DNA of 22,917 nt from a virus: positions 1 through 22,917 of the IMG/VR virus record IMGVR_UViG_3300031758_000601; one strand, 5' to 3'. The notes under the pieces were generated by a model that made no database searches, was not told where the DNA came from, and was given only the letters and a program-made list of their open reading frames with translations. Position 1 is the first letter of the stretch, and every line of letters begins with the position of its first letter. A program made the position numbers and the translations under genes. Of this stretch, positions 5,894-10,630 are shown piece by piece.

Positions 5894-6121
5894 ATGACAA
5901 CAAAAGTAAAATTTTTATACCATGAAGGAAACCAAGATTTAATGGCTTATTTCCCTGAAGAGGTATGGTGCGACAATACAAAAACTTGTTATTCTCACAT
6001 TGGACAGCATTCGGCATGCCATCCAAACTACGCAAAAGAATGTAGAGAAGCCACAATGCTTGAGTACTTAGATTTATTTAATGAACTACAAAGCATAGGC
6101 TACCGATTAGAACTTGTTTAG
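5894..6121 (+). CDS. Small Cys/His-containing phage protein
   Basis: The start is placed at ATG 5894, ten bases after the preceding stop, giving 75 residues; an ATG at 5834 lies inside the upstream gene and lacks the A-rich leader (ACTACAA) that 5894 has. The product begins MTTKVKFLYHEGNQDLMAYF and has a compact CYSHIGQHSACHPNYAKEC segment (about residues 32-50) with three Cys and three His, suggesting metal binding or a structural Cys/His knot. This kind of CY-H-GQH-C arrangement recurs in small uncharacterised phage proteins as I remember them. Its stop codon TAG (6119-6121) is inside stem I of the predicted hammerhead ribozyme. Confidence 0.75.
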   Translation: MTTKVKFLYHEGNQDLMAYFPEEVWCDNTKTCYSHIGQHSACHPNYAKECREATMLEYLDLFNELQSIGYRLELV

Positions 6122-6194
6122 GGTTTACTGATGAGGGGTAAGATTCCCCGAAATGGCGTAAGTTCCCCCGCTTACCCATATAAACCAAAAATAA
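6114..6194 (+). ncRNA. Type I hammerhead self-cleaving ribozyme
   Basis: The plus strand carries every conserved hammerhead element in order. Stem I 5' strand GGUUUA (6122-6127); CUGAUGA core (6128-6134); stem II GGGG/CCCC (6135-6138 with 6146-6149) and 7-nt loop UAAGAUU; GAAA (6150-6153); stem III AUGG plus GUAAG pairing with CUUAC plus CCAU (6153-6162 with 6171-6179, C6157 bulged) and loop UUCCCCCG; cleavage triplet AUA (6178-6180); stem I 3' strand UAAACC (6181-6186). Beyond a 2x2 internal loop stem I continues for six more pairs (6114-6119 with 6189-6194, one G-U), matching natural type I ribozymes in which this loop docks with loop II. The required 10.1-11.1 G-C and 15.1-16.1 A-U pairs are present. 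Predicted cut: between A6180 and U6181. The element lies between two genes of the early operon. Confidence 0.9.
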
Positions 6195-6199
6195 AGACA

Positions 6200-6409
6200 A
6201 TGAGCTTTAAAATTGACAGCTACCAAGTAAACGAGCATACAAATGACCTCGTTTTATATGTTGGGGATTCTATCTTTTGCACAATTAATTACCTAAATGG
6301 AAGGGGCGAAGTTATAAGCGAAGAGGAAATCGAAGACATAATCTCGGATATTGAATGGGAAGAAAATATCGGAAAGTCACAAGCGTGGAATGATTATTTA
6401 ACAAAATAA
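6200..6409 (+). CDS. Hypothetical protein (69 aa) downstream of the ribozyme
   Basis: The start is placed at ATG 6200 (MSFKIDSYQVNEHTND...), because the upstream in-frame ATG at 6131 is part of the ribozyme core CUGAUGA and would encode an unlikely peptide from the ribozyme. The leader between the predicted cleavage site and this ATG is 19 nt of A-rich sequence (UAAACCAAAAAUAAAGACAA), which fits the start context of the neighbouring genes. The 69-residue product has a beta-strand N-terminal half (LVLYVGDSIFCTINYLNG) and an acidic helical C-terminal half (ISEEEIEDIISDIEWEEN). I recognise no family. It is the last gene before a 232-bp gap. Confidence 0.7.
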   Translation: MSFKIDSYQVNEHTNDLVLYVGDSIFCTINYLNGRGEVISEEEIEDIISDIEWEENIGKSQAWNDYLTK

Positions 6410-6477
6410 ACCATTTCCAGGCTATTTAATTTTTTTATGATCTATAATAAGCAAATAAAAAGAAAAGGCAAATTTGA

Positions 6478-6499
6478 GGCTTAAAATAGGCTTTAAATG
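6478..6499. repeat. Paired GGCTTAAAATA / GGCTTTAAATG motif
   Basis: Two adjacent 11-bp units (6478-6488 and 6489-6499) differing at two positions, in the gap at 6410-6641. It belongs to the same paired motif family as 3403-3421, 3467-3487 and 4459-4478. A small perfect hairpin TGGTA-TTTT-TACCA (6498-6511) follows directly. Confidence 0.55.
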
Positions 6500-6551
6500 G
6501 TATTTTTACCAAATAGGTAAGATATGCCAATTATTACCCATTTTATGCTAT

Positions 6552-6572
6552 TGCAACTGCTTTTTAGTTGCA
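6552..6572. repeat. Perfect inverted repeat TGCAACT-GCTTTTT-AGTTGCA
   Basis: A 7-bp stem with a 7-nt loop between the 6478 repeat pair and the methyltransferase-like gene. There is no T-tract after it on either strand, so it is more likely an operator or an mRNA leader hairpin than a terminator. Confidence 0.45.
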
Positions 6573-6577
6573 TAAGC

Positions 6578-6637
6578 AAAAACCCCCTAAAAATCCCACA
6601 AAAACCCCATCCAAAAAACTCGCAAAAAACCCTTAAA
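6578..6637. promoter_or_regulatory. Helically phased A-tracts (predicted bent DNA)
   Basis: A-runs begin at 6578, 6589, 6600, 6613, 6624 and 6635 (five or six As each, three in the last), so the spacing is 11, 11, 13, 11 and 11 bp, separated by C-rich blocks. A-tracts repeated at about one helical turn are known to bend DNA. The tract ends four bases before the start codon of the gene at 6642. Confidence 0.55.
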
Positions 6638-6641
6638 CCAT

Positions 6642-10118: not shown

Positions 10119-10125
10119 AAATCTT

Positions 10126-10184
10126 AACCACCTCATGATAAAATATTAATAACCTGATAGTAATTAGTGAAACTTGGGGTGGTT
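10126..10184 (+). repeat. Long-range inverted repeat AACCACCTCA / TGGGGTGGTT
   Basis: The arms at 10126-10135 and 10175-10184 form a 10-bp stem (one G-U pair) around a 39-nt A+T-rich loop and are followed by TATTTTAAA. It starts eight bases after the stop of the gene ending at 10118 and precedes a small membrane-protein gene. It could be a weak terminator or an mRNA 3'-end structure; the large loop makes a classical intrinsic terminator unlikely. Confidence 0.4.
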
Positions 10185-10200
10185 ATTTTAAACTACAAAC

Positions 10201-10317: not shown

Positions 10318-10526
10318 TGGAGATTGCAGGATTAGAGAACTCAGTACCAGTGAGGATGATTTATGTTGACGATAAAAGTGAAGTATTGTTTAAATCTTTA
10401 GCTCATGCAGCAAGGAATACAAGGATCACACAAGACTCAATAAAGAAATCACTTAGCCCTTTACTAAAGAAGAAATTTAAGCATAATAATAGAGATGTTG
10501 TTTTTAGGATAGTAAAGGATAAATAG
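10314..10526 (+). CDS. Small basic hypothetical protein (70 aa)
   Basis: A 70-residue protein starting in the ATGA overlap with the small membrane gene (a second ATG follows at 10317). Residues 14-32 (VRMIYVDDKSEVLFKSLAHA) followed by ARNTRITQDSIKKSL and a basic KKKFKHNNRDVVFRIVKDK tail resemble the short domain in which a target sequence is recognised by a NUMOD1-like or helix-turn-helix fold (SLAHAARNTRITQDSIKKSL). It is possibly a remnant or stand-alone DNA-binding module. The frame ends at the promoter-like element 10527-10534. Confidence 0.65.
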   Translation: MMEIAGLENSVPVRMIYVDDKSEVLFKSLAHAARNTRITQDSIKKSLSPLLKKKFKHNNRDVVFRIVKDK

Positions 10527-10534
10527 TATATTTG
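10527..10534 (+). promoter_or_regulatory. Consensus -7 promoter element TATATTTG
   Basis: A perfect match to the Bacteroidota -7 element TAnnTTTG directly after the stop codon at 10524-10526. No clear TTG lies at the ideal -33 distance; the nearest is 26 bp upstream (10498-10500), with a T-run at 10501-10505. Transcription would start near 10538, the first base of the first hairpin stem below. Confidence 0.45.
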
Positions 10535-10604
10535 TAATGTATTATGCGACAATACAACAAAGAATTTATTGGGTGGAGGATAAACAGGTAGTCGCATTAC
10601 CTGT
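10532..10604 (+). ncRNA. Kissing-loop RNA leader: two hairpins with complementary loops
   Basis: Hairpin A is TGTATT-ATGCGAC-AATACA (10538-10556), extended below a two-base bulge by TTGT/ACAA (10532-10535 with 10557-10560). Hairpin B is ACAGGTA-GTCGCAT-TACCTGT (10584-10604). The two 7-nt loops, ATGCGAC (10544-10550) and GTCGCAT (10591-10597), are perfect reverse complements, so the RNA can form an intramolecular kissing complex, or pair between two RNA molecules. After hairpin B come GAGTCTGAAGCCC and a T-run (10618-10624), and GGG at 10571-10573 could pair with CCC at 10615-10617. The start codon of the replisome-organiser gene is at 10631. No known riboswitch class is recognised. Confidence 0.6.
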
Positions 10605-10630
10605 GAGTCTGAAGCCCTTTTTTTATTTTT

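Follow-up and report, generated by a model that had tools for sequence, protein, structure and literature searches.

The window analysed here, a stretch of 22,917 nucleotides (positions 1 to 22,917 of the IMG/VR virus record IMGVR_UViG_3300031758_000601), carries two small plus-strand genes separated by a structured spacer. The upstream gene (5894..6121) encodes 75 amino acids from ATG 5894; its translation was checked and relatives were found, while no protein-family match was obtained for it. The downstream gene (6200..6409) encodes 69 amino acids ending in ...WNDYLTK, a form of the tail motif described below, and likewise has relatives. Farther downstream on the same strand lie genes for methyltransferase(s), a DnaA-C-like protein, a DnaD-like initiator and DnaB, and the terminase in the window is closest to those of Parabacteroides/Bacteroides phages, with approximately 36% identity. 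An earlier reading of the DNA from its letters alone (the sequence-only reading) had placed the pair in an early operon of a Bacteroidota phage. Codirectional small genes do indeed precede replication genes here; the downstream genes named above suggest that the pair is expressed early, and the host is presumably a member of the Bacteroidota.

Judged by its sequence, the spacer at 6122..6186 (+) is a type I hammerhead ribozyme for which cleavage is predicted, scoring 91.3 bits (E 2e-21) with the covariance model R1, which was built from 15 sequences. Its stem I pairs GGTTTA (6122..6127) with TAAACC (6181-6186), and is followed by the catalytic core CTGATGA (C3-A9, 6128..6134), the stem II hairpin GGGG-TAAGATT-CCCC (6135..6149, with four pairs between the strands 6135-6138 and 6146-6149), the core GAA (G12-A14, 6150..6152), and the stem III hairpin (6153..6179), which reads ATGGcGTAAG-loop-CTTACCCAT and contains a bulged C6157. 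All the residues that define the class, C3 U4 G5 A6 N7 G8 A9 and G12 A13 A14, are thus present at 6128-6134 and 6150-6152, together with the 10.1-11.1 pair (G6135-C6149), the A15.1-U16.1 pair at the base of stem III (A6153-U6179), H17 (A6180), and three selected helices with stem I open, with covariation in stems I, II, and III. The conserved elements and paired stems described in the sequence-only reading were checked base by base and agree with this assignment. The predicted cleavage site (6180..6181) lies between A6180 and U6181, and cutting there would give the downstream product an A-rich 19-nt leader (6181..6199) before ATG 6200, at exactly the coordinates proposed earlier. The hammerhead had been drawn at 6114-6194 (+), a span that does contain it but is too wide, as the inner element is 6122-6186. 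Neither the internal loop that had been assigned to stem I nor the outer helix is conserved in the relatives, and the reported overlap with the upstream stop codon holds only if that outer helix (from ~6114 on) is counted; the TAG at 6119-6121 abuts stem I.

The minimum-energy fold of 6100-6205 is the three-way hammerhead junction, but its energy is unexceptional when compared with shuffles (z = -1.6), and it is the core, together with covariation among relatives, that carries the case for a hammerhead. Shuffling the window 100 times never produced the hammerhead pattern. Since the window itself holds a single copy, with the next-best covariance score at 10.9 bits, there is no array at this locus. 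A gene start at ATG 6131, within the core, was also considered and rejected, since contig L031 has CTGAAGA (no ATG) at this place and keeps the gene from the equivalent of 6200.

When the window was searched whole and narrow against Rfam 15, with E up to 10, no hammerhead match was returned, either to Hammerhead_1 (RF00163) at its curated cut-off or below it, or to RAGATH-1-hammerhead (RF03152). The sequence-only reading had set such a search beforehand as its own refutation test and, taken literally, the test failed, with zero match in the window. However, the miss arises because Rfam holds no fitting model, and hence marks a limit of the models rather than a refutation. Hammerhead_1 matches the present branch in its permutation (stem I open) and in its core, but gave 19.9 bits on the best copy in contig L102 against a cut-off of 34. 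RAGATH-1-hammerhead is the nearest Rfam family for several relatives, at approximately 15-35 bits, below its cut-off of 56.3, which was reached by 0 of 12 records. Among 18 relatives (115 kb, several dozen copies), no Rfam hammerhead scored above cut-off. The current RNA library thus overlooks a large hammerhead branch. A blastn search of the window against 50,697 named phages gave chance matches only, and no relative with known activity was found inside this hammerhead branch.

The relatives are numerous. A pattern of the fixed stem I and core matched 27 viral contigs, 26 of them real-looking, and a looser pattern matched at least 120 viral contigs and only 4 contigs among 84,980 bacterial and archaeal genomes. 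The 165 fetched sequences yielded 187 matches to a strict structural finder and the reversed control yielded 0, and the distinct relatives amount to 163 in total, with the hammerhead junction as the best fold in 141 of the distinct sequences. The hammerhead family is a large branch that resides mostly in uncultivated viral contigs and is almost absent from bacterial genomes. In 296 Bacteroidota genomes, a covariance-model search found no copy, but its filters also missed the known copy in L164, so that this negative carries little weight. Hammerhead arrays also occur in L161 and L163, two short MAG contigs that were assigned to bacterial bins but are probably mis-binned phage sequence. Independently of the ribozyme, a scan by the 3' end of the downstream gene alone identified 24 contigs, comprising 21 with an intact hammerhead, 2 with a flawed one (L170, L171), and 1 with another RNA (L166). 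The flawed copies, which precede the slot of small genes described below, have an extra base or a mismatch beside the core, and are possibly weak or dead.

The covariation check proposed in the sequence-only reading found extensive compensatory changes. In a 15-sequence alignment that was not fitted to the structure, 99.6% of the cells are paired and 31 are double-change cells, versus at most 10 when the alignment is slid. A 137-sequence alignment, made to the covariance model and hence leaning towards it, has 99.3% of the cells paired, double changes at 16 of 19 pairs, and 509 double-change cells versus at most 95 in slid controls. Among these 137 relatives, core position 7, which is known to be unconstrained, is T, C, A, or G, whereas the other core positions are fixed save for single exceptions, with GAA invariant. 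In 160 copies, H17 is always A or C, and G does not occur there. This constancy of the core is owed partly to the search patterns, a bias that is countered by the 21 of 24 contigs with an intact hammerhead in the ribozyme-independent scan. Stem I pairs include UA, AU, CG, GC, and GU, and the downstream-gene scan yielded GGTTTA, GGTTAA, GGTTGA, and GGTTTG with CAAACC; since the variants stay paired, pairing constrains stem I as well. Stem II has compensatory changes at three of its four pairs, with a loop of the form T-N-A-N-T (T as its first base in 136/137 and A as its third in 121/137), and stem III changes in the same compensatory manner, with 136 different sequences among 160 copies. The A's that flank stem I are conserved as well (89% at -1, 97% at +1, and 84% at +2); these and the conserved loop II are the features that bear on a putative tertiary contact between loop II and stem I. 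With its near-invariant core, free N7, restricted H17, and compensatory changes in all three stems, the type I assignment is upheld.

These data also bear on the possibility that the element serves mainly at the DNA level, as a conserved border for gene swapping by recombination, with ribozyme activity incidental. The nearly fixed sequence of stem I would fit such a linker, as would the free exchange of the surrounding genes, which fall into 100 downstream and 81 upstream clusters, and the swapped slot behind the ribozyme. However, stems II and III change their letters and yet stay paired, and only core position 7 varies freely, which indicates selection on RNA rather than on DNA homology, and we regard the linker as improbable.

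Placement at gene borders is equally regular. Of 142 copies, 133 have the upstream stop at -6 to +20 of the start of stem I, and in 73 of the 142 this stop overlaps the ribozyme; a start codon follows 16-28 nt past the cut in 134 of 148 copies, versus 6% for random positions. The codirectional gaps in these contigs have a median of 11 nt when ordinary and 74 nt when ribozyme-bearing, indicating that the ribozyme fills the extra length. Sequence comparison establishes the identity, conservation, and position of the ribozyme; as for its activity, timing, and effect on expression, we infer that its most likely role, and a probable one, would be to cut polycistronic phage mRNA at gene borders into separate messages. 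The hammerhead would be carried in a polycistronic phage transcript and would fold after passage of the RNA polymerase and clearing of the upstream stop codon by the ribosome, and the folded RNA would then self-cleave at the A6180|U6181 site. This would leave an upstream message that ends just past its stop with a folded 3' end and a 2',3'-cyclic phosphate, while the downstream small gene would gain its own message with a 5'-OH and the 19-nt leader, a length close to the minimum for a starting ribosome. The two genes would subsequently decay and be translated separately. To our knowledge, the role of phage hammerheads has been an open question since 2011, and with over 160 natural copies that share one stop/start geometry, the idea of mRNA cutting becomes directly testable.

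The same geometry could instead reflect a translation-gated switch, in which ribosomes finishing the upstream gene would sit over stem I and the core and keep the RNA from folding, so that cutting occurs mainly when upstream translation stops, and the ribozyme would read upstream translation and set downstream expression. Indeed, nearly every copy has the stop codon touching or overlapping the 5' strand of the ribozyme, and the reading frame varies: some stops end within about 4 nt of the start of stem I, others at GGTTAA, and others with the core's UGA. Tight packing alone would put the stop there too, since ordinary gaps are just 11 nt, and no alternative fold or sensor was seen; we therefore consider gating unlikely, although it is the strongest competitor to the mRNA-cutting role.

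A few relatives have other RNAs at the same junction. In contigs L036, L037, L038, and L040, the two genes are retained with a different structured spacer in place of the hammerhead between them, and the ribozyme is thus replaceable. This alternative spacer forms another three-way junction (2925-3000 in L036, L037, and L038; 1542-1617 in L040); it had no meaningful Rfam match, and a scan for more found just the four known contigs. Its interpretation as a hammerhead was rejected, because GAA is absent and the core is not kept. In L042, a terminator-like hairpin was seen by eye at the junction, which the scanner, limited to loops of 8 or less, did not list. Such replacements would fit a folded RNA that shielded the upstream 3' end or blocked the polymerase, with no need for cutting. 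Nevertheless, a protective hairpin requires none of CUGANGA, GAA, A15.1-U16.1, and H17, all of which are kept, making a passive fold very unlikely.

Some contigs carry multiple copies, up to seven hammerheads, always on one strand and around single genes. Some relatives thereby have a single gene with hammerheads on either side, a layout that would also suit a circular-RNA or retrozyme-like element, in which two ribozymes release a unit that is then ligated. The window has one copy and no repeated unit, and circular or spliced products were sought in prophage arrays and not found (PMC3088659), so that this explanation appears extremely improbable. On the minus strand of L103 (6226-11139), six to seven copies are each followed by a near-identical 44-45-nt leader before the ATG, with a covarying hairpin stem (AGUC/GACU, AGUG/CACU, AGAC/GUCU). 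At its start, this leader is similar to the 5' hairpin (AAguCAG...gacUAUAA) in the RAGATH-1 model. No named relatives of the arrays in L102 and L103 were found.

The sequence-only reading noted that hammerheads are known in some phages, and singled out one between genes of a Bacteroidota phage early operon as worth study. The arrangement is not unusual: it recurs among the relatives, and phage hammerheads at gene borders had already been published (PMC3088659). In the prophage arrays described by Perreault et al. 2011, the tested hammerheads cleave in vitro, and one does so in E. coli; they flank single genes or short gene blocks, and processing of phage transcripts was suggested (PMC3088659). 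The present branch likewise lies at gene borders and around single genes, but differs from the prophage hammerheads in its near-fixed stem I, in the stop codon at stem I and the ATG about 22 nt past the cut, and in its distribution, which is concentrated in uncultivated viral contigs (at least 120, against the 4 contigs among 84,980 genomes). In the haloviruses HF1/HF2, HHphage lies 13 nt before the start codon of an early gene, and a mapped 5' end fits cleavage (PMC3088659). Both HHphage and the window have a hammerhead shortly upstream of a phage gene start, but HHphage is a variant structure at the front of a transcript of an archaeal virus, whereas the window has a canonical core at an internal gene border. 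The present family is therefore a new branch of a known kind, and its new parts are the locked stop/start geometry and the slot for tailed genes behind the ribozyme.

In the lineage of the window, the position behind the ribozyme is taken up by a small gene that changes from one relative to the next. Of 138 proteins whose genes immediately follow a ribozyme, 37 end in [YHF]-L-[ATS]-[KRQ], usually E-Y-L-A-K, versus 7 of approximately 3,430 other reading frames, five of these seven belonging to the window gene's own family; in the window, the tail is encoded at 6386-6409 (+). After removal of the tails, the tailed proteins fall into at least 14 unrelated families sharing E-[YH]-L-[AT]-[KQR], and the tail is absent from homologues elsewhere (L042 and Staphylococcus phage GH15 ORF003). 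The tail codons vary synonymously around a dominant form, consistent with, but no proof of, selection for the tail peptide. We tentatively propose, as a possibility somewhat short of even, that the ribozyme in this lineage may be the fixed front gate of a slot in which small accessory genes are swapped, each on its own ribozyme-released message and with the tail as a shared address or turnover tag. The shared tail on unrelated proteins is in any case a separate lead on how phages handle small accessory genes.

Three other regions of the window drew attention. The stretch at 6410-6641, after the small gene, is non-coding, and comparable stretches in the slot relatives share conserved motifs. 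A non-coding spacer at 10119-10200, closed by AACCACC/GGTGGTT and situated before a small ORF (GTG 10167 or ATG 10201), looks structured. Finally, in the region 10520-10630, a promoter-like TATATTTG of the Bacteroidota type lies at 10527, and the short non-coding stretch behind it contains a hairpin and a T-run and possibly encodes a small RNA.
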